A DNA stretch of 33,474 nucleotides from Rubrobacter sp. (lineage in GTDB: Bacteria; Chloroflexota; Chloroflexia; Thermobaculales; Thermobaculaceae): positions 1-33,474 of the forward strand of contig JADDPP010000445.1 in NCBI GenBank assembly GCA_016781845.1, in the 5' to 3' direction. A program made the translations under genes and the position numbers. Each line of letters opens with the position of its first letter. Within the stretch, counting starts at the first letter, position 1. A model generated the notes under the pieces. It did no database searches. It worked only from the letters and a program-made list of their open reading frames with translations, and was not told where the DNA came from. Positions 11,970 through 30,835 of the stretch are shown here, piece by piece.

Positions 11970-12497
11970 GTGCCGAGAGTACAGCCAGTTGCGATAGATA
12001 ACGCACCGCCCGAAGCCAGGGAGGTGTTCGCGCGCTTCCAGGCCGAGCGCGGCAACGTCCCCAACATGTTTCGGACTCTCGCCCTGCGGCCCGAGGTGAT
12101 GACAGCGTTCGACGCAGCCTTGCGGGCGGTGCTGCACACCGGCGCCCTCCCGCTGCGGCTCAAGGAGATGGTAGCGGTTAGGGTGTCGCAGCTCAACGGC
12201 TGCCGCTACTGACTATCGAGCCACTCCGCCTTGTTAAGGCGGTTGGGTGTGTCGCAGGAAACCATAGACGAGATGGAGACCAGAGGCAGTGATGCCGATG
12301 TTGGTGGACGTGAGGCCGCGGCCCTCGCCTTCGCCGAGCACATGACGCTGAACGCACGCGCCGTACCCGACGAAGTGTGGATTGAGCTGAGACAGCACTT
12401 CGACGAGGGCGAGATTGTCGAGGTGGCCGCCGTTGCGGCGCTGTTCAACGGTTTCAACAGGTTCAACGACGCACTCGAGGTGGAGGTAACGAGATGA
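11970..12497 (+). CDS. AhpD-like (carboxymuconolactone decarboxylase fold) selenoprotein, UGA read as Sec81
   Basis: Two open stretches, 11970-12209 and 12213-12497, lie in one frame with only TGA 12210-12212 between them. Joined, they give a 175-residue AhpD/CMD-family protein. The first ends ...LNGCRY and the second begins LSSHSALLRRLG, so the stop falls exactly at the second Cys of the family's CxxC-xxx-H redox centre (Cys78, position 81, His85; Glu66 upstream). UGA differs from the Cys codon UGC by one base, and a SECIS-like hairpin follows. Both halves are otherwise intact. AhpD-type proteins reduce peroxides or peroxiredoxins through this dithiol, and AhpD-like selenoproteins with CxxU are known from genome surveys. 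GTG start with GGGGAGA upstream. If UGA is not decoded, the product would be an 80-residue fragment. No sel gene is visible in the window. Confidence 0.8.
12210..12246 (+). promoter_or_regulatory. Bacterial SECIS-like hairpin immediately after UGA
   Basis: The in-frame UGA (12210-12212) is followed after 13 nt by CCGCCTT (12226-12232), loop GTT (12233-12235) and AAGGCGG (12236-12242), a perfect 7-bp stem. CCA 12221-12223 can pair with TGG 12244-12246 across a small asymmetric internal loop, extending it to ten pairs. The apical loop starts 20 nt after the UGA with G then U. Known bacterial SECIS elements lie in the coding frame just after UGA, with a small loop bearing G in its first two positions. 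SelB would bind this hairpin. Confidence 0.75.
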
Positions 12498-12790
12498 GGA
12501 AGAGGCTCTCGCTGAACAACGTCCTCGGCGTCATCACCGGGCTACTAGCGATTGCGGCGGTGGTAAGTGAGCTTAGGAAGCCGAGCGCAGAGCGCACGTG
12601 GCATGGAAAGGTGGCAGGCGTGCCGTACGACTTCCGCCCTCTCACCCAGGAGCGGCTGCTGCGGTCGTTCTGGCGACCCGACAGCGACTCACTGTTCACC
12701 GAGCATGCGCTCGGCGTCGGTTGGGGCATCAACCTCGCCTACCCATTGCGCCTGGTCCGCTCTGCGCGCCGCGCCCCACAAACGTCGTGA
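12494..12790 (+). CDS. DUF5808-type small protein
   Basis: A 98-residue protein with one hydrophobic N-terminal segment (about residues 7-25) that may anchor it in the membrane. The remainder, with GVPYDFRPLT, SFWRPDSDSLFTEHALGVGWG and INLAYPL, resembles the DUF5808 pattern of a proline-rich entry, a WxPxD segment and a GWGWxxN ending. No function is known. Its ATG overlaps the stop of the AhpD-like gene (ATGA), so translation would be coupled to full readthrough of the UGA and the two are probably made together. This overlap is further evidence that the 3' half of the AhpD-like gene is still translated. Confidence 0.6.
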   Translation: MRKRLSLNNVLGVITGLLAIAAVVSELRKPSAERTWHGKVAGVPYDFRPLTQERLLRSFWRPDSDSLFTEHALGVGWGINLAYPLRLVRSARRAPQTS

Positions 12791-12851
12791 TGCCTCGCGT
12801 TGTGTCCGCGCAACAGCTCCGTCCAACCCCTCACCCGCTCGGAGCACTCCG

Positions 12852-13478
12852 ATGACCCAGCCAGACCTGTTCCAGGCTAACTACGGCCCCTCGCTCGATG
12901 CCGCGCGCCGCGATGCCCTCGACTGCCGCCGCTGCGACCTGTGGCGCTCAGGCACACGCACGGTCTTCGGCTCGGGCTCTGCGGACGCGCAGCTGATGCT
13001 CATCGGCGAGGCTCCGGCGGAGGCGGACGACCGCACCGGCCTGCCCTTCAGTGGCCCCTCGGGCGCGGTGCTTGATGCGTGGCTGGAGGAGATCGGGCTG
13101 ACGCGCGGCGACGTATGGCTTACGAACGTGGTGAAGCACCGCCCCACCGTGGTTGAGAACGGGCGCGAGAAGAACCGCCCTCCGCGCGCTGGCGAGGCCA
13201 ACGCCTGCAGGGTCTGGCTAGACATCGAGCTTTCCCACGTGCGTCCCTCACTCATCCTCGCCCTCGGGGGCACGGCGGGCAAGGCTCTGCTCGGCAAGGG
13301 TTTCAAGATAACTCAGCAGCGCGGCAGAGTCCTCCCCGGCCCCGGTGCCATCCCCGTCATCGCCACCTTCCATCCTGCCTACATCCTCCGGCTTGAGCCG
13401 CCGGAGCTGCAGCAGGCGGAGAAGCTGGTGAGCGACGATCTGGCACTCGTGGGGCGGGAGTTAAAAATTGGGTCGTAG
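12852..13478 (+). CDS. Uracil-DNA glycosylase, family 4-like
   Basis: A 208-residue glycosylase expected to remove uracil from DNA. Motif GEAPAEADDRTGLPFSGPSG (52-71) is the family 4 water-activating and binding loop, TNVVKHRP (91-98) lies at the second conserved block, and TFHPAYILR (172-180) is the DNA-intercalation motif with its His. Family 4 enzymes hold a 4Fe-4S cluster with four Cys. Here only Cys25, Cys28 and Cys119 exist, and the usual Cys of KCRP is His96. The protein may bind an unusual cluster or none. The ATG has GGAG seven nt upstream. UdgX-type enzymes were considered, but their KRRIH motif is absent. Confidence 0.85.
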   Translation: MTQPDLFQANYGPSLDAARRDALDCRRCDLWRSGTRTVFGSGSADAQLMLIGEAPAEADDRTGLPFSGPSGAVLDAWLEEIGLTRGDVWLTNVVKHRPTVVENGREKNRPPRAGEANACRVWLDIELSHVRPSLILALGGTAGKALLGKGFKITQQRGRVLPGPGAIPVIATFHPAYILRLEPPELQQAEKLVSDDLALVGRELKIGS

Positions 13479-18525: not shown

Positions 18526-19815
18526 GTGAAGATCAGGTGGATACATACCGCCGACGTTCACCTTGGTTACCAGCAGTACGGCCTGCACACGCGCGCCGAT
18601 GACTTTGCGCGCGCGTTTATGCACGTCTGCGAGCACGCTATCTCCTCCCGCGTGGACTTCATGCTCATCGCAGGGGATCTGTTCCACAAGCGCGCCGTGG
18701 ACGCCCGCACAATGACGCAGGCGTTCGACCTGCTAACTCGCATGAAGCAGGCTGGCATTCCCGTGCTCTGCGTGGAGGGCAACCACGAGCGCGCGTTCTA
18801 CAACTCCAGCTACACGTGGCTGGAGTTCCTGTGCTTCCACGACCTGCTCTACCTGCTCGGTCCCGACCATAGCTCGGGGCAATCGAGGCTCGAGCCGTGG
18901 GACGAGGAAAACAGGCTGGGCGGCTATGTGGACATCGGTCCGGCGCGGGTGTACGGCATCAAGTACCACGGCGCGAGCGCGCCGAGGGTGCTGGAGCACG
19001 TATCAGAGCAGCTTGGGGGTGAGGCAAGGCGTCCGTTCAGCGTAGCCATGCTGCACGAGGGGTTGGAGGGCCAGATACCGCGCTCGACTGGCGGCCTCAG
19101 CAGCACGCAGATGGAGATGCTGCGGCCCCACTGCGAATACCTCGCGCTTGGGCACATACACAAGCAGTACGAGCTTGGCGGCTGGGCGTACAACCCCGGT
19201 AGCTTGGAGACGTGCTCCACCGAGGAGTGGGACTGGAGCCGAGGGTACTACGAGGTCGAGGCCGACACAGAGAGCCGCCAGCTGCTCTCCGTGAAGCACC
19301 ACGAGAACCCGCGCAGGCAGTTCCACCGAGTCTTCGTCGGCATCGAGGCATGCACTACGCCGCAGAGCCTGGAGGACACCGTGCTGCGGGAGGTAGAGCG
19401 CAAGATCTCGGCGGTGCGCGCTCACAAGCCGGTCGTGGATGTGACATTGCGAGGCACGCTTCAGTTCGGGGACGACGGCCTGAACCTCGACCAGATCGAG
19501 GCGCGGGTACGCGAGAACTGGGACCCCCTCGTCGTGCGCATCAAGAACAACACGGTGCCAGTGGGCTACAGCGCGAGCGCTGCGATAAACGAGGACGGAA
19601 GCATAGACCGCCGAGCGCTGGAGCTGCAGGTTCTTACTGACCTGCTCGTGCGCGACGCCCGGTACGCAGGGGCCGCGGCCGAGTGGGCGCAAACCTTCCA
19701 GGAGCTCAAGGACTCCGCGCTTGCCGGCCTGCCGCCCGAGGAGGTCGTTACGCTGCTGGAGCGCGGCCTGGAGCGAGCGGCGAAGAGCCCCAGAGTACAG
19801 GATAACGCCGCGTGA
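18526..19815 (+). CDS. sbcD: SbcD/Mre11-type DNA repair nuclease
   Basis: A 429-residue metallophosphoesterase, the nuclease subunit of the SbcCD/Mre11-Rad50 complex that opens hairpins and processes DNA ends. Metal-binding motifs appear in order: TADVHLG (8-14), AGDLFH (49-54), GNHE (85-88), LHEG and ALGHIHKQYE. A capping region and a C-terminal helical part that contacts SbcC follow. The GTG start has AGAGGG upstream and lies just after the promoter. The stop overlaps the start of sbcC by four bases. It is the first gene of the five-gene resection operon. Confidence 0.92.
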   Translation: MKIRWIHTADVHLGYQQYGLHTRADDFARAFMHVCEHAISSRVDFMLIAGDLFHKRAVDARTMTQAFDLLTRMKQAGIPVLCVEGNHERAFYNSSYTWLEFLCFHDLLYLLGPDHSSGQSRLEPWDEENRLGGYVDIGPARVYGIKYHGASAPRVLEHVSEQLGGEARRPFSVAMLHEGLEGQIPRSTGGLSSTQMEMLRPHCEYLALGHIHKQYELGGWAYNPGSLETCSTEEWDWSRGYYEVEADTESRQLLSVKHHENPRRQFHRVFVGIEACTTPQSLEDTVLREVERKISAVRAHKPVVDVTLRGTLQFGDDGLNLDQIEARVRENWDPLVVRIKNNTVPVGYSASAAINEDGSIDRRALELQVLTDLLVRDARYAGAAAEWAQTFQELKDSALAGLPPEEVVTLLERGLERAAKSPRVQDNAA

Positions 19816-22800
19816 GGGTGCTCTCAGTACAGCTCACCAACATCAAGAGCTACACAAACCAGACCGTCCGCTTCGAACACGGCACGAACTGCATCTGCGG
19901 GGAGAACGGCGCCGGGAAGACCACGATAGTCGAGGCGATTGGCTGGGCGCTGTTCGACTACCTGCCGTACAACCAGAAGCAGTTCCGCCGCGATGGTGCG
20001 ACCGCCGGCCAGGTGGCGGTCACCTTCCTCGCGCGCGACGACCGACCGTACGAGGTGGTGCGCAAGACCGGCGGCGCCGCGCCACTCTGGTACGTGTTCG
20101 ACCAGGAGATCAATGCCCGCCTGGTTGAGGGCTCGAAGGACGTAAAGGAATGGCTGCAACGGCAGCTCGGCACAGAGGACGCCGCCGCGCCGCAGGTCCT
20201 GTTTGCAAACGCCGTCGGCGTGCCCCAGGGCGGGCTGACCGCGCCGTTCCTGCAGAGCGCGGAGGGGCGCAAACATGCCTTCGACCCCATCCTGCGCGTC
20301 CATGAGTACGCAAACGCCGCGGGAAACCTCCTGGATACGAACCGTCACCTCGAGAACAAGGTGCGCGACCAGCGGGAGCTCGTAGCGACGCACGGTGTGG
20401 AGGCCAGCAAGATACCGGATATTACCCTGGCGATGCAGGCCGCACACGACGCGGTCGCTACCGCCGGAGGACTGCTTAAGGAGCGGGAGACCCGGAAGCA
20501 GCGCGAGGACGCGCACGTCGCGGCGCTGGAGACCGAGGAGCGGCGCATCTCCGACCTGCGAAACACGCTGGAACTCTCGCGGCAGTCGCAAGCCGGGCTT
20601 GGCCAGAGCTATGAGCAGGCCACGGCGCGCGTGAACCAGGCCTGGCGGGCGCACGAGGTCGTGGAGCGCTCCACAGTAGGGCACAAGCTGTACGTGGACG
20701 CTCAGGCGAAGCTGCGCGATCTGCAGCCGCGACACGCCGAGTATCGCCGCCTCCTCGGACTACTGGAGCTGGAGGAACGAGACCTGGAGCGCACAGGCCT
20801 CGAGATCGCGAACAGGGAGCGGGAAATCGTGCGTGCGGAGTCCGAGGCCGCGCGCCTGCCCGAGCTCAAGGCCAGGGCCGAGGAGGCCGCGGAGCTCGGC
20901 AAGCAGGTCCACGCGCTGGAGCAGGTCAGGCAGCAGCTCCCCAAGCTGGAGGCGGACCTGCGCACTCTGACAGACCAGATGCAGCGCGACGAGCGCGAGA
21001 TACTGCGGCTGGACACCGAGGTCGCACGCATTGAGCGGTTGCGTCCTGAGGCGGAGCGTGTGCCGCAGCTCAGGCAGCGGCGCGAGGACGTGAGGCTTCG
21101 CCTGCGGTCCGCACACCAGGCGAGCGAGCAGGCGCGCAAGCTGGCGGGCGACATGACTGCGCTGCAGGCCCAAATCAAGGGTGCTGAGACAGCAGTACAG
21201 AAGCTCACCAGCGAGGCGCGCCTCTCCCCGGAGGTCGAGCGGTTGGCTTCGGAGGTCGAGGCGCTCCATCAAAGGGAACGTGTCGCCTCCGAGCACCGGC
21301 AGGAGCTTATTGCCCAGTACAGGGAGCTGGCGGCGCAGAAGAAGGCGCAGGCGGTGGCCTGCCCGATGTCGCGCGCCGACTGCCTGGCGCTGCAACGTGA
21401 GCGCGCGCAAGACGACTGGTTCGGGCGAGAGATGAAGCGGGTTGAAGCCCTGGGCAAGCAGGCTGCCAGGGACCTGGAGCAGGCGCAGGCCCTTCGCGAG
21501 CAGGCTCAGGTTGCTGCAAAGACTGTCCAGGCTAGCCAAATGATGCGTGTTCAGCTCGATGGAGAGCGGCGCAGGCTCGAAGAGCTACGCACCCGACAGG
21601 CGGACCTGCACGCGGAGATAGCGGAGCAGGAGGGCACCGTAGCGCAGCTTCCAATGCTGAAGCAGGAGGATGCCGCGCTCGCTGCCGACTTGGAGCGCGC
21701 GGAGGCGGCGCAGCGCGACGTCGGACGGCTGCCCGACCTGCAGAATCAGAGACGCAGGCAGGCCGACGAGAACGAGGAGCGCGCACACGCGAGGTCACGA
21801 AGGGAGGAGGACCTCGATCAGGCACGCGAGCGGCTCGGCGAGCTTCGGGAGCTCCAGCGCCGCCTGGCGGACCTGGGTGACGCGGGGGGAGCGTACGCGG
21901 ATGCCCGCGGCCTGGCGAACGCCCTGCCGCAGCTGCAGGCCGCACGTGATGCGCTTTTCCAGACACGACAGGCGACGCTGGAGCGTATCACAGCCTTGCA
22001 GCGGGACATAGCTCCGCTGCAGGGCGTGGAGGCTTCCGTGCGGGACGCGGAGGAGATAATCCGCCTGAACCATGCCGACTATGAGGCGTACCTTGCGAAC
22101 GCATCCATGGCGGCGGAGCTGCCACGTCATCAGATAGAGCAGAAGCAGCTCGAGGGCCAGCTGTCCCGGCAAACCGCCGAGCTGGAGCGTCAGGAGGGAG
22201 TGCTGCAGAGGGCGCTGGAGCGGTGGGACGAGCGAGCGTTGCAGGACGCGAGAACCAGCGTTGAGCAACTCAGCAGTGAGATAGGCGGGCTCAAAACCAA
22301 AATCCAAAACGAGACCGACCGCCTGAACGAGCTCCGAGCAGCGCTCGACAAGGCCGAGCAGCACGCCAGCCTCAAGGAAGCGGCGCTCGCCGAGGCTGAA
22401 CGGCTGCAGAGGCTTCAGGAAGTGCTCGGGTACGCCCGCAAGACGCTCAAGGAAGCGCAGGGGCCGGTGACGGAGGCGCTCCTGTACGGCGTCTCCCAGG
22501 AGGCGCGCGGCATCTTCTCCGATATCATTGACGACCACTCTGCCCGGCTGGTGTGGACTCCCGAGTACGAGGTACAGCTCGAGCGCGGGGCCGAGCGGCT
22601 TGTGTTCAACCAGATGTCCGGCGGGGAGCAGATGAGCGCCGCGCTCGCCGTTCGCCTCGCCCTCCTAAAGAAGCTCTCCGACATTGACATCGCGTTCCTC
22701 GATGAGCCAACGCAGAACATGGATGAGACGCGCCGAACGAACCTCGCTGCGCAGGTGCGTGAGGTCAAGGGCTTCGAGCAGTTGTTCGTGATCTCACACG

Positions 22801-22892
22801 ACGACACGTTCGAGCGCCAGGTGAGCCACGCAGTCGTCGTGCGTAAGGTCGGCGGCGACAGCACGGTCGCGTACGGGCACGAGGGCTCGTAG
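19812..22892 (+). CDS. sbcC: SbcC/Rad50-type SMC-like ATPase
   Basis: A 1026-residue ABC ATPase of the SMC type that partners SbcD. N-terminal Walker A is GENGAGKTT (30-38). Two long coiled-coil arms rich in Glu, Arg, Gln and Leu follow (about 180-510 and 530-870). The C-terminal half-site has signature MSGGEQ (935-940), Walker B IAFLDEPT with Asp964-Glu965, and the switch His of ISHDD at 996. At the apex, where Rad50 proteins have a CxxC zinc hook, this one has CPMSRADC with Cys517 and Cys524. Length is typical. The GTG overlaps the sbcD stop (GTGA), and nurA follows after four bases. Confidence 0.92.
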   Translation: MRVLSVQLTNIKSYTNQTVRFEHGTNCICGENGAGKTTIVEAIGWALFDYLPYNQKQFRRDGATAGQVAVTFLARDDRPYEVVRKTGGAAPLWYVFDQEINARLVEGSKDVKEWLQRQLGTEDAAAPQVLFANAVGVPQGGLTAPFLQSAEGRKHAFDPILRVHEYANAAGNLLDTNRHLENKVRDQRELVATHGVEASKIPDITLAMQAAHDAVATAGGLLKERETRKQREDAHVAALETEERRISDLRNTLELSRQSQAGLGQSYEQATARVNQAWRAHEVVERSTVGHKLYVDAQAKLRDLQPRHAEYRRLLGLLELEERDLERTGLEIANREREIVRAESEAARLPELKARAEEAAELGKQVHALEQVRQQLPKLEADLRTLTDQMQRDEREILRLDTEVARIERLRPEAERVPQLRQRREDVRLRLRSAHQASEQARKLAGDMTALQAQIKGAETAVQKLTSEARLSPEVERLASEVEALHQRERVASEHRQELIAQYRELAAQKKAQAVACPMSRADCLALQRERAQDDWFGREMKRVEALGKQAARDLEQAQALREQAQVAAKTVQASQMMRVQLDGERRRLEELRTRQADLHAEIAEQEGTVAQLPMLKQEDAALAADLERAEAAQRDVGRLPDLQNQRRRQADENEERAHARSRREEDLDQARERLGELRELQRRLADLGDAGGAYADARGLANALPQLQAARDALFQTRQATLERITALQRDIAPLQGVEASVRDAEEIIRLNHADYEAYLANASMAAELPRHQIEQKQLEGQLSRQTAELERQEGVLQRALERWDERALQDARTSVEQLSSEIGGLKTKIQNETDRLNELRAALDKAEQHASLKEAALAEAERLQRLQEVLGYARKTLKEAQGPVTEALLYGVSQEARGIFSDIIDDHSARLVWTPEYEVQLERGAERLVFNQMSGGEQMSAALAVRLALLKKLSDIDIAFLDEPTQNMDETRRTNLAAQVREVKGFEQLFVISHDDTFERQVSHAVVVRKVGGDSTVAYGHEGS

Positions 22893-22896
22893 AGTA

Positions 22897-24093
22897 GTGC
22901 TGCATGCAAGCCGCGCCGCACGGGCACTGGAGGCCAACCTCGACCGCTTCACCGGCTACGACCGCACACTCAGCGACGACCTTGCGGCGTACCGTGACGC
23001 CCTGGCGCGGCTTGAGGGCCGGAGCGCGCACGAGATATCGGCTCCCTTGCCCGGCGGCCCCACCGGCGCCCTGCCCTCCCCCGAGTGGGACACCTACTGT
23101 CGTCCGGTCCTGCCCTTTGGCGTGGAGTTTACCAACCACGAGGAGGCGCGGGAGTGGGCGGCACGGACGCTGTACGACCGGATCACCTTCGCCGCAGATG
23201 GCAGCCAGATACAGCCCCTGCCGGACATCTCGGTGCCCGTCGCGGCGGTTCAGGTGGGATGGTTCGAGAACCCGCACAACCCGGACGTGCCGTACATCAA
23301 GGATGTCCACGTGGAGGTCCTGCCCCCCGACGAGGTGTTCGTGGTGCGCAACGGGGTGTCTGTCTTCTCCGACCAGCGGGTGAGCCTGCGCCGGTTCGAG
23401 CTGGAGGTGGACCGCTTGTGCGAGTGGATGCAGGAGCACTCAGGCGTGCGTCCACTGCCCGTCGCGTTCTTCGACGGGTCGCTCGTCGTCTCGTTCGCGG
23501 AGAACCTGGAGCCTCAGACACGAGAGTTCTACATCCAGCAGGCGGTGCGGCTGCTCTCGACGTCGGAGCGGACCCGCGTGCCGCTTGTAGGCTACGTGGA
23601 CAGCAGCCGCGCGCGTGACCTTACAACCATGCTCGCCCACGCATACCCGGAGCTGGAGCCCGCCGAGCTCGTCACGGACGCGGGACTCTTGCGCGGCAGC
23701 ATGAACTGGGGTGACCGCACCCCCGCCTGGCTCTGCAACCGCGAGGGAGTGCTCGCGGACTACAAGGCGGGCGAAGGAGACGGCGCGGCGGACCTGAGTG
23801 ACCGCGTCTGCTTCCTCTACCTGAAGACCTCCGCCTCCAATGTTCCCGCCCGCCTCGACCTCCCCCGTTGGGTCGTCGAAGAAGGGCAGGCGGAGGACGT
23901 CGCGCAGATTGTCCGCGCGGAAGCGGTGGTAGGCAATGGCTACCCGTACGCTATCGAGACGGCCGATGCCGTGGCTGTCATCACCTCCGAGGACAGGCGC
24001 CGCTTCTATGGGCTCTTCGAGCAGTTCGCCGAGCGCAATGGCATCAGGCTCAGGGTCGCGAGTAAGATACAGAGCAAGTACAGGCGTCGGTAA
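22897..24093 (+). CDS. nurA: NurA domain nuclease
   Basis: A 398-residue protein with a NurA fold, a 5'-3' exo/endonuclease that works with the HerA translocase in DNA end resection. Acidic positions sit in the expected blocks: Asp101 in AADGSQI, Asp193 in FFDGSL and Asp235 in GYVDSSRA. The C-terminal YPYAIETAD and VAVITSEDRRRFYGLFE also fit the family. The GTG start four bases after the sbcC stop indicates tight coupling. Experimentally studied NurA-HerA pairs are mostly archaeal or from Deinococcus and Thermus. Confidence 0.85.
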   Translation: MLHASRAARALEANLDRFTGYDRTLSDDLAAYRDALARLEGRSAHEISAPLPGGPTGALPSPEWDTYCRPVLPFGVEFTNHEEAREWAARTLYDRITFAADGSQIQPLPDISVPVAAVQVGWFENPHNPDVPYIKDVHVEVLPPDEVFVVRNGVSVFSDQRVSLRRFELEVDRLCEWMQEHSGVRPLPVAFFDGSLVVSFAENLEPQTREFYIQQAVRLLSTSERTRVPLVGYVDSSRARDLTTMLAHAYPELEPAELVTDAGLLRGSMNWGDRTPAWLCNREGVLADYKAGEGDGAADLSDRVCFLYLKTSASNVPARLDLPRWVVEEGQAEDVAQIVRAEAVVGNGYPYAIETADAVAVITSEDRRRFYGLFEQFAERNGIRLRVASKIQSKYRRR

Positions 24094-24188
24094 GAAACGG
24101 GGCAGGCACGACGCCTTCCATAACCGATCATTATGACAGGGACTCCCGCGCTGCCACTGCATCCTTCCCAGGAGAGTCACGGACAGAC

Positions 24189-24782
24189 ATGACCACAATC
24201 GGCAAGATTATCAAGAGCAACTCACACATAGACTACGTCTGCCAGGTGTACGGGCCGGGTGAGACCGCGCACGCGCCCGTGCCGGAGGATCACGCCCTGG
24301 GCACGTGGGTTCAGATGCCCGCGGGGTCGGAGCAGGGAGACGCGGCAGTGGGCCTCGTCTACGACACACAACTCTACAACCCCGACTACGGCACCTTCGG
24401 CCCCAGGCTCTCCAGCCAGTCGCAGTTGGAGGTGTTCTCGCCCGACTATCTCAACGAGACTGCCGTGCTGCTCGGCATCCTCGTTGTCGGGCAGATGCGG
24501 GGCGGCAGACGGATGACCAGTGGGTACTGTCCGGTTGTTGCTCCCATTGGGGCGCCTGTCACACGGCTGGCGCCGGAGGGCGTGCGCGCGTTCCATAACG
24601 GCGCGGGACAACTGGAACTCGGCTACTACAGCCTGCTCATGTCCATTACCGACCCTATTATGCCCTCGCTGTTGCTAAGCGTTCTTGACGGGCTGGAGGA
24701 CCTCATGCCGGAACAGACGCGCACAATAGGCGCGCTGCGGACTAATCTTTCGTGGAAGACGCGGGTTGAGCTTGCGCGCTGA
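24189..24782 (+). CDS. Unrecognised protein between nurA and herA, possibly HAS-barrel-like
   Basis: A 197-residue protein that I do not recognise by family name. The N-terminus IGKIIKSN, the segments LGTWVQM and VGLVYDTQLYNP, and VLLGILVVGQM suggest a small beta barrel like the HAS domain that precedes the HerA motor. A C-terminal part of about 50 residues (from SLLMSITDP to the end) looks helical. There is no signal peptide and no membrane helix. It lies 95 nt after nurA, with AGGAGAG 12 nt upstream of the ATG, and herA starts 16 nt after its stop. The position inside the operon suggests a subunit or regulator of the HerA-NurA motor; that is inference. Confidence 0.7.
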   Translation: MTTIGKIIKSNSHIDYVCQVYGPGETAHAPVPEDHALGTWVQMPAGSEQGDAAVGLVYDTQLYNPDYGTFGPRLSSQSQLEVFSPDYLNETAVLLGILVVGQMRGGRRMTSGYCPVVAPIGAPVTRLAPEGVRAFHNGAGQLELGYYSLLMSITDPIMPSLLLSVLDGLEDLMPEQTRTIGALRTNLSWKTRVELAR

Positions 24783-24798
24783 GGAGGTACACACGACG

Positions 24799-26472
24799 AT
24801 GCACACCGAGCCCGTCGGGGCGGCGAAAGGGCCTGGAGAGACTCCGCACGAGTACACGCTTATCAGTGCGGACCCGGAGCAGAAGCTCAAGAACGGCGAG
24901 TTCGTGTACTACAAGGCGCACGTGGAGGGCCGGGAGCGCCGCATTCTCGGCCGCATAACCCGTCGTGAGCCGGTCAAGCTCTTCCCCGACAGCTTCCTCG
25001 CGGACCCGCGCATCTCCCCTGACGAGCTGGCGCGCGCGGTGGGCTACACGCACCCTGAGAGAGAGCTGTTCCAGCTAACCGTCACCTTGCTCGGCTACTA
25101 CGACGAACGATTCAAGGCGTTCATAAACCCGCGACTGTCGCCGAGCTGCGGCTGGCCCATATACCTGGCGGAGAACGAGCTGCTCAGGGATACACTCTCC
25201 AAGAAGCTTCCCGGTGAGCGCGGTTCGGCGTGCATAGGCTCGTTGCTGAGCAGGCGCGAGGGCGAGGTGCCTGTGGTCCTCGACGTGCGCGAGTTCACGA
25301 GCACGCACATGGCTATCATCGCGAGCACAGGCTCCGGCAAGAGCTATCTCGCGGGCGTGCTGATAGAGGAGTTGATGAGTCCGGCGAACAAGGCGTGCGT
25401 ATTGGTGCTGGACCCGCACGGAGAGTACGGCACGCTCAAGGAGCTTCCGAACACAGAGGCTTTCCACGAACGCGGGAGCCTGTCCGACTACAGGCCACGG
25501 TCGTGGATACTTCGTCCCGAGCGCATCAAGGTAAAGCTCTCGACGCTGGAGTACCCCGACCTTCGCTACCTGCTACCCACGATGACGGAGCGGATGGAGG
25601 AGCTGCTCTCCAGGGCGTTCACGCGCGTCCAGAATCAGGAGAACCGGGCGTGGTCTGTCGGCGAGTTGGAGGTAAAGATACGCAACATCGCGGATGAGCG
25701 CCGTGACGACCAGGGTGTAGACTACTCCATGACCGCCGACGGACTGTGCCGCCGTCTGGACTCGATGCTCGGCAAGCCGCCGTTCTCCGCCTCTGAGGAC
25801 CTGGACCTCCGAGAGCTGCTCAAGCCAGGGCAGTGCAGCGTGCTCCAACTCGACGACATTGATGAGAAGCGACAGCAGGTGATAACAGCCACGCTCCTGC
25901 GACGCATCTACCGAGCGCGCCAGCGCACGGCGCGAGGTGAGACATCGCAGGGCGACGCCGAGCACATTCCGTATCCGGTATTCGTGCTACTGGAGGAAGC
26001 ACACCACTTCGCGCCCGCGGGTGGTGATGCGATGAGCACAGGCATACTCAAGCAGGTGCTCGCTGAAGGGCGCAAGTTCGGGCTTGGGGTGGGCCTGATC
26101 AGCCAGCGTCCGGGCAAGCTGGACGCGGACGTTCTCTCGCAGTGTATGACTCAGTTCATCATGAAAGTGGTCAATCCAATAGACCAGAACACCATCGCCT
26201 CCGCCGTGGAGAGCGCGAGCCGCGATATACTCGATGAGTTGCCGGCGCTTAGCAAGGGGCAGGCGATAGTGACCGGCAGCTCGATGAACGCGCCTGTGCT
26301 GTGCAGGGTGCGGGAGCGGCTCACAGAGCATGGTGGTGTGAGTATGGATGCCCCAGACGAATGGAACCGCTACTGGAACGGGGACGCTATCCGGGAACGC
26401 GAGCGAGAGTACGCGGTGCTCCACACCTCCGGTCCGCGCGGCAGGAGGTCGCTGTATGGGAGTGAGAGGTAG
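24799..26472 (+). CDS. herA: HerA-type hexameric DNA translocase ATPase
   Basis: A 557-residue ATPase of the HerA/FtsK class. An N-terminal beta barrel (about 18-125) precedes Walker A STGSGKS (176-182), then DPHGEYGTL, and Walker B FVLLEEAHHF with Glu399-Glu400. EGRKFGLGVGLISQRPGKL and the Gln/Arg-bearing segments after it match HerA. The hexamer pumps DNA and stimulates NurA. ATG 24799 is preferred over an upstream in-frame TTG at 24766 that lies inside the previous gene, because GAGGAGG stands 11 nt before the ATG. It closes the five-gene operon; the next gene has its own promoter. Confidence 0.88.
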   Translation: MHTEPVGAAKGPGETPHEYTLISADPEQKLKNGEFVYYKAHVEGRERRILGRITRREPVKLFPDSFLADPRISPDELARAVGYTHPERELFQLTVTLLGYYDERFKAFINPRLSPSCGWPIYLAENELLRDTLSKKLPGERGSACIGSLLSRREGEVPVVLDVREFTSTHMAIIASTGSGKSYLAGVLIEELMSPANKACVLVLDPHGEYGTLKELPNTEAFHERGSLSDYRPRSWILRPERIKVKLSTLEYPDLRYLLPTMTERMEELLSRAFTRVQNQENRAWSVGELEVKIRNIADERRDDQGVDYSMTADGLCRRLDSMLGKPPFSASEDLDLRELLKPGQCSVLQLDDIDEKRQQVITATLLRRIYRARQRTARGETSQGDAEHIPYPVFVLLEEAHHFAPAGGDAMSTGILKQVLAEGRKFGLGVGLISQRPGKLDADVLSQCMTQFIMKVVNPIDQNTIASAVESASRDILDELPALSKGQAIVTGSSMNAPVLCRVRERLTEHGGVSMDAPDEWNRYWNGDAIREREREYAVLHTSGPRGRRSLYGSER

Positions 26473-28562: not shown

Positions 28563-28652
28563 GTTGCCTGGTTTGCAGCCGAATCCCTCACACGTGCTGT
28601 GATGACAGGGTAAAGCTCGTGCCCGAGTTCAATCACCGAGACCGCCAGGCAT

Positions 28653-28663
28653 CGTGCCCCTAC
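28653..28663. repeat. Half copy of the REP-like word
   Basis: CGTGCCCCTAC repeats exactly the right arm of the inverted repeat at 13502-13512. Only one arm is present here. It lies between the tRNA terminator and the DUF255 gene. Confidence 0.35.
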
Positions 28664-28756
28664 ACGGATGGGCTACTTCCCCTCACGATAGCGAGCCTGC
28701 CCTGGCACACCGCTTGCACACCACCGTTATGTAGTGACGAAAGCGAGACTTTCCCC

Positions 28757-30835
28757 ATGCCTAACAGATTGGCGAACGAGACGAGCCCTTACCTGCTGCA
28801 ACACCAGGACAACCCGGTGGACTGGTATCCGTGGGGCGATGAGGCTCTCCAGAAGGCGCGTGCCGAGGACAAGCCCGTGCTGCTCTCTATCGGGTACTCC
28901 GCGTGTCACTGGTGCCACGTCATGGAGCACGAGTCGTTCGAGAACCCGGATATCGCGCGCATAATGAACGAGAACTTCGTGAACATCAAGGTGGACCGCG
29001 AGGAGCGGCCAGACCTGGACTCCATATACATGGACGCCGTGCAGGCTATGACGGGGCACGGCGGCTGGCCGATGACCGTCTTCCTCGCGCCGGACGGCAG
29101 GCCTTTCTACGGTGGCACGTACTTCCCGCCCGAGGACAGAATGGGCATGCCTGGCTTCCCGAAGGTGCTCCGGGCGCTCGCTGAGGCGTGGCGCGACCGG
29201 CGCGAGGAGCTGGAGCACGGCGCGGGCGAGCTGCGCGAGCATCTGGCTCACGTAAGCCACCTGCAGATACCGAACAGGGAGGAGTTGAGCCAGGAGACAC
29301 TGGACAGGGCGCTCGCCGCCCTCTCTCAGAGCTACGACACCCGGCACGGAGGCTTCGGAGGGGCGCCGAAGTTCCCGCAGCCTATGACGCTCGAGTTCGC
29401 GCTGCGCTCGTACAAGCGCACGGGCGACCTGCGCGCGCTCGACATCGTGAGTCACTCGCTCGACGAGATGTCCGCAGGCGGGATCTACGACCAGATCGGC
29501 GGCGGCTTTCACCGCTACGCGGTGGACGACCGCTGGCTCGTGCCGCATTTCGAGAAGATGCTCTACGACAACTCGCAGCTCGCGCGTCTCTATCTACAGG
29601 CGTGGTTGGCGACAGAAAACGAGCACTACCGCAAGGTCTCGGAGGAAACCCTCGACTACGTCCGGCGCGAGATGACCTCCCCTGAAGGAGGTTTCTACTC
29701 CACGCAGGACGCGGACAGCGAAGGTGAGGAGGGCAAGTTCTACGTCTGGACTCCCGCGCAGATCAGGGAGGTGCTTGGCCCGGACGACGCGGCGGTGGTG
29801 AACCTGTACTACCACGTCACAGAGCGCGGCAACTTTGAGGGGACAAACGTCCTCAGCGTCCCTCGCCCAGTCGACACCATCGCCACCCTATCCAGTAAAG
29901 AGCCGGGCGAGGTGATGGAGATTGTGGAGCGCTCGCGCAAGAAGCTGTACGAGGCACGGGAGCACAGGGAACGTCCCGGCCGCGACGAGAAGGTCCTGAC
30001 GGGATGGAACGGGCTGATGCTGCGCGCGTTCGCCGAGGCCGCTGCCGCGCTCGACCGCGCCGATTACCGCGAGATCGCGGTGCGAAACGCCGAGTTCGTG
30101 CTCTCTCACCTGAAGGCGGAGGACGGCCGCCTGCTGCGCACGTACAAGGACGGACGCGCAAGGCTCAACGGCTACCTCGAGGACTACGCGTTCTACGCGG
30201 ATGGCCTGGTCTCCCTCTACGAGGCGACCTTCGATGTGCGCTGGCTGCGGGAGGCGCGGGCGCTCGCCGACAGAATGATCGAGCAGTTCTGGGACCCAGG
30301 ATTGCCCGGCTTTTACGACACGAGTGCCGACCACGAGCAATTGTTCAACCGCCCGCGCAGCCTGTACGACAACGCCGTCCCCGCGGGTAACTCCGTCGCG
30401 TGCGAGCTGCTGCTGAGACTCTCCGCGTTCTTCGCCGAGTTCAACTACCAGGATGTGGCGGCGAAGGTGCTCAACAGCATGGCCCCTATCATGGCGGAGC
30501 ACCCGACCTCGTTCGGAAGGCTGCTGTGCGCCGCTGACTTCCTGGTCTCCACGCCGCTCGAGGTAGCCATCGTAGGGAACCCGGTGGAGGACCGTGCTCG
30601 CGCCCTGCTGCGCGAGGTCTATAGCCGCTATCTGCCGAACCGAGTTCTCGCGGCGGCTGAGCCGGATGACACCCAGACGACCGGGTACGTTGCCTTGCTG
30701 GCGGAGCGTCCACAGGTGAACGGGCAGCCGACGGCGTACGTGTGTCACAACTACGTATGCCGCCAGCCAGTGACCTCGGTAGCAGAGCTGGCGGAGCAGC
30801 TCGGGGAGGAGCCAAGCAGGAGCATAGCGCTGTAG
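28757..30835 (+). CDS. DUF255/YyaL-type thioredoxin-fold protein
   Basis: A 692-residue protein of the YyaL/SPATA20 type. The N-terminal thioredoxin-like domain (about 1-165) begins [20 protein letters not shown] and has the CHWCHVM motif near residues 48-54, with GGWPMTVFL following. The remainder is an alpha/alpha toroid like N-acylglucosamine epimerase and glycosidase folds, with [28 protein letters not shown] and [12 protein letters not shown] as family landmarks. Its biochemical role is not established. ATG 28757 begins the conserved sequence; a longer in-frame start at 28619 would include the repeat word and unrelated residues. The ribosome-binding site is weak. It is a single gene, convergent with the phosphatase 49 nt away. 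Confidence 0.88.

Follow-up and report, generated by a model that had tools for sequence, protein, structure and literature searches.

A gene at positions 11970–12497 on the forward strand of the window (the whole stretch of 33,474 nucleotides analysed here) very probably encodes an AhpD-like oxidoreductase of the TIGR01926 type in which codon 81, a UGA, is read as selenocysteine (Sec) via SelB at a downstream hairpin. The gene appears to be broken by an internal stop but is almost certainly intact; ordinary annotation would miss it, either splitting it in two or calling it a pseudogene. The original prediction of a functional selenoprotein rather than a broken gene is supported by conservation of the UGA and the hairpin, by alternation of Cys and UGA codons in homologues, and by the presence of selA and selB. 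The matter is settled by comparison, since the UGA, the hairpin and the gene neighbourhood are conserved across genera and exchange with Cys occurs class-wide.

The gene starts with a GTG at 11970, preceded by the Shine-Dalgarno-like sequence AAGGGGAG, and ends with a TGA at 12495–12497. A single in-frame TGA (12210–12212) lies between them, and the read-through product is 175 aa long. This UGA replaces the second Cys of a CxxC within the active-site motif C78-R-Y-U81-L-S-S-H85-S (12201–12227, forward strand), with Glu66 situated 12 residues ahead of Cys78. The position and frame of the UGA, described earlier as a single in-frame TGA at the second redox Cys of an otherwise intact AhpD/CMD gene, are confirmed. 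The next forward-strand ORF (12494–12790; 98 aa, with a weak DUF5808 match) begins at an ATG at 12494 that overlaps the selenoprotein gene stop as ATGA, and its orthologue follows in four relatives. The overlap had been offered as an argument that the 3′ half of the gene is still coupled to translation; the overlap itself stands, but the 98-aa ORF also has its own GGAGG, so that coupling is not needed and the argument is weaker than first put. A uracil-DNA glycosylase (UDG) superfamily ORF (12567–13478, forward strand) is part of the conserved neighbourhood, and its real start is probably further downstream.

The window also holds two other loci of note. The genes at 18526–26472 follow one another and encode a calcineurin-like phosphoesterase (Mre11-like), an SMC/Rad50-like ATPase, NurA and a HerA-type helicase, making up a DNA repair cluster of the HerA-NurA/Mre11-Rad50 type in a Chloroflexota genome. 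At 28619–30832 lies the gene for a 738-aa thioredoxin-domain protein that is DsbH-like (PF03190).

Family searches in which the UGA was read as Cys give matches that span the UGA position. The window protein matches the Pfam CMD family (1.1e-23) and passes the curated cut-off of the TIGR01926 peroxidase-related enzyme model (105.3 bits, cut-off 81.8; residues 2–172 of 176). Two CxxU selenoprotein families that share the CMD fold, NF053654 (YciW-related (seleno)protein) and NF041238 (AhpD_rel_CFYUT), have detectable similarity at 81 and 63 bits respectively, both far short of the equivalog cut-offs (310 and 175). The NF053654-like homologues L026, L088 and L092 have Gly or Asn at the position of the window's His in CxxU-xxx-H. 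The window protein resembles the solved AhpD-like structures 6k40, 2oyo and 2prr, and a structure model of moderate confidence (pLDDT 67.8, based on five sequences) is all-helical, with the CxxU opening a helix after a helical hairpin; its Foldseek matches are 2prr, 3c1l and 6k40.

The family of the host genome is represented here by seven genomes, and orthologues of the gene are present in four others of these (G002–G005), which belong to other genera and encode proteins with 67–78% identity. Each orthologue contains exactly one in-frame stop, a TGA at codon 81, and no further lesions; the G005 orthologue is spread over the ends of two contigs (C14 and C71). The named records among the relatives are MAGs from Chloroflexia, of which one carries the label Thermobaculum and another Rubrobacter. 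The gene order ksgA – ispE – O-antigen-ligase-like gene – AhpD(Sec) – 98-aa ORF – UDG is shared, although the G005 locus is split. Random additional lesions in close relatives, named at the outset as grounds for refutation, are not seen, and the same TGA is kept in all four. These data bear on the simplest alternative, that the gene is a pseudogene arising from a recent nonsense mutation of a Cys codon or from a sequencing or assembly error. TGC or TGT becomes TGA by one base change, and the failure to find selC and selD in the draft genome is in keeping with such decay, but the UGA occurs at the same codon with intact flanks in four assemblies of other genera, the gene has no other lesion, the same UGA column recurs in more distant clades, and double changes preserve the hairpin stem. 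A pseudogene is therefore very improbable. Two further AhpD-like genes with an in-frame TGA at the second Cys of CxxC (L026 and L028) are present in another genome of the same family (G001); L026 (CPFULDIG) has no His after the CxxU and is nearer to NF053654 than to TIGR01926.

A class-wide search gives a match in 45 of 158 genomes. In an alignment of 34 sequences, all 14 interrupted genes carry the TGA in the column of the second Cys, and TGC or TGT is found there in 19 others, such that the alternation of position 81 between Cys and UGA that had been proposed as a check is present across the class. Six changes between Sec and Cys are required on the tree, and well-supported branches force at least four of them. 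Searches of viral contigs reveal no relatives, and searches of plasmids only matches below 60% identity, the best at about 31–36%. The same alignment addresses whether the gene might be genuinely split into an 80-residue N-terminal part and a re-initiated C-terminal part (from an internal TTG at 12231 or a GTG), with the UGA acting as an ordinary stop. An 88-aa ORF does run in the same frame from TTG 12231; however, the UGA coincides precisely with the catalytic Cys codon of relatives (TGC or TGT), the interrupting stop is UGA in all 14 aligned genes and never UAA or UAG, and both flanks are highly conserved, which is unexpected for a break in a catalytic helix. A split gene is accordingly even less probable than a decayed one.

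Sec insertion is predicted to depend on a bacterial SECIS-type hairpin located at 12226–12242 on the forward strand. It contains a perfect 7-bp stem (CCGCCTT, 12226–12232; AAGGCGG, 12236–12242) and a GUU loop (GTT, 12233–12235), just as first described; the stem begins after 13 nt and the loop G after 20 nt, such that this G is at +21 relative to the UGA. By itself the hairpin is weak evidence and only mildly improbable. Synonymous recoding of codons 82–97 at local codon usage yields seven or more Watson-Crick stem pairs anywhere in the SECIS window in 4.5% of versions (p about 0.045), the fold z-score against dinucleotide shuffles is -1.7, and the folding energy (MFE) is average relative to synonymous shuffles of the window gene and is uninformative. 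Because the hairpin alone is not very surprising, the case for Sec rests on comparison.

Within the family, the stem and loop are nearly identical in four members, and the codons TTG-TTA-AGG-CGG are kept in four genomes, with TTA at codon 89; TTA makes up 0.8% of the window's Leu codons and is rare in relatives too. Synonymous-codon conservation in the stem is in the right direction but is not significant by count (5/6 versus 47/106; p=0.07). In further comparisons that do not fully correct for relatedness, seven homologues that share a register (with that of A3 picked by inspection) have 95.9% of cells paired, against 31–67% in slid registers. Three stem pairs are altered on both sides in a compensatory manner, and none of 500 shuffles attains the covariation score. 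In an energy comparison with the same limit on relatedness, the best hairpin at a set distance from the codon has a mean of -7.4 kcal/mol in the 14 TGA genes versus -1.4 in the 19 with Cys (p=1.5e-5, or 7e-4 once near-identical rows are thinned). The hairpin at the SECIS position is weak in two homologues, L028 and L092.

The host genome contains intact, full-length selA (contig C471; TIGR00474, 533 bits) and selB (contig C475; TIGR00475, 362 bits) genes, whereas selC and selD were not found in its 502-contig draft; the proposed check of the sel genes favours Sec as regards selA and selB and is incomplete for the other two, whereas every other proposed check that was run came out in favour of Sec. 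A 47.5-bit tRNA-Sec candidate in this genome is identified as tRNA-Ser(GCT) by ARAGORN. A gene that flanks selD was also sought, and only a 53% homologue on contig C6 and a short fragment on C71 were recovered with no selD on either contig. Most family members do have these genes: a tRNA-Sec with anticodon UCA is present in five family genomes (confirmed by ARAGORN), as is selD (L045–L048 and L067). Each of these selD genes has its own in-frame TGA, with the context ASCAG-UGA-AAK in those read, and SelD itself is therefore a predicted selenoprotein in the host's family.

The selC gene lies within about 2 kbp of a release-factor gene in four family members (L060, L062, L064 and L065); this neighbour is taken as prfA from its higher-scoring PCRF domain. 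Proteins with a PCRF domain (RF1 or RF2) are absent from the host draft (G000; estimated completeness 96.7%) and present in the other six of the seven family genomes. Because release factors are essential, the 502-contig draft must lack some genes, and the absence of selC, which neighbours prfA in four relatives, is consistent with that gap. For selD, the general incompleteness of the draft is the sole explanation. With a draft that is fragmented and without RF1 and RF2, the absence of selC and selD is weak evidence against Sec.

The release factors are also relevant to the reading of UGA as another residue (e.g. Trp) through general reassignment or read-through. Loss of RF2 usually accompanies general UGA reassignment, and the draft has no RF2. 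Nonetheless, RF1 is missing too and the relatives have both, such that the draft is simply incomplete; the gene's own terminal stop is UGA; the internal UGA occupies a Cys rather than a Trp column; and selA and selB are present. Reassignment is the least probable of the three alternatives considered, all of which are rejected.

The family alignment shows no variation at Glu66, Cys78, Tyr80, position 81 or His85, and the spacing of these residues is that of the five proton-relay residues of Pseudomonas PA0269, Glu36, Cys48, Tyr50, Cys51 and His55 (PMC3141380). The window protein shares with PA0269 and Mycobacterium tuberculosis AhpD the all-helical fold and a relay of Glu, Cys, an aromatic residue or His, Cys and His (PMC3141380), but these are Cys-Cys enzymes, the window protein has Sec for the second Cys, and overall identity is low. 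PA0269 is a weak peroxidase when assayed (PMC3141380).

The original prediction placed the UGA at the resolving Cys, a label that is probably wrong. Sec81 corresponds in the alignment to the C-terminal CxxC Cys of M. tuberculosis AhpD, Cys133. This Cys is described as the exposed attacking residue at the base of the cleft, where it cross-links to AhpC, and Cys130 as partly buried (PMC6626918). Because of this exposure, the attacking role more likely falls to Sec81 and the resolving role to Cys78, although in Burkholderia thailandensis AhpD the first Cys mattered more (PMC6626918), and for the window enzyme we infer these roles by analogy.

The most likely pathway would begin, when selenium is available, with SelB and Sec-tRNA, bound to the hairpin 13 nt beyond the UGA, decoding codon 81 as Sec. 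The product is predicted to adopt the all-helical AhpD fold with a Glu66-Cys78-Tyr80-Sec81-His85 relay, in which Sec81, activated by His85, would act as the nucleophile towards a peroxide or an oxidised partner (e.g. a peroxiredoxin). Cys78 would then resolve the selenenyl-sulphide, which a cellular reductant would reduce. These catalytic steps follow AhpD biochemistry, and the peroxidase activity, partner and reductant of the window enzyme are inferred only. No ahpC is present among the nearby window genes examined.

The protein is a selenoprotein of an already catalogued kind (AhpD-like CxxU, TIGR01926) and is less new than first implied. AhpD-like CxxU selenoproteins have been reported from the Sargasso Sea (27 sequences; PMC1088965) and in Global Ocean Sampling data (PMC2398784), an 'AhpD-like protein, TIGR01926, CxxU' is listed in a 2026 review (PMC13188914), and Sec/Cys exchange in redox proteins is well described (PMC1794560). 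The marine proteins and the window protein share Sec in place of the second CxxC Cys, a downstream SECIS-like stem-loop and widespread Cys homologues. They differ in that the marine reports concern other communities, whereas the window gene belongs to a Chloroflexota family in which it has a fixed neighbourhood (ksgA, ispE, the O-antigen-ligase-like gene, DUF5808 and UDG). No paper on AhpD-like selenoproteins in Chloroflexota was found in the literature covered, which was incomplete. It is reasonably likely that these genes constitute an undescribed AhpD-like selenoprotein branch specific to this Chloroflexota family, with repeated Sec/Cys swaps within one class and a SECIS hairpin that the majority of Sec members possess, whereas most Cys members have a weak one or none.

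The finding would add a selenium-dependent redox enzyme to the poorly studied Chloroflexota. If true, a lineage-specific branch of this sort would be a good natural series for studying the gain and loss of Sec. Several closely matched Sec and Cys versions of this enzyme occur within the class, and assaying such pairs side by side could show what Sec adds to AhpD chemistry.
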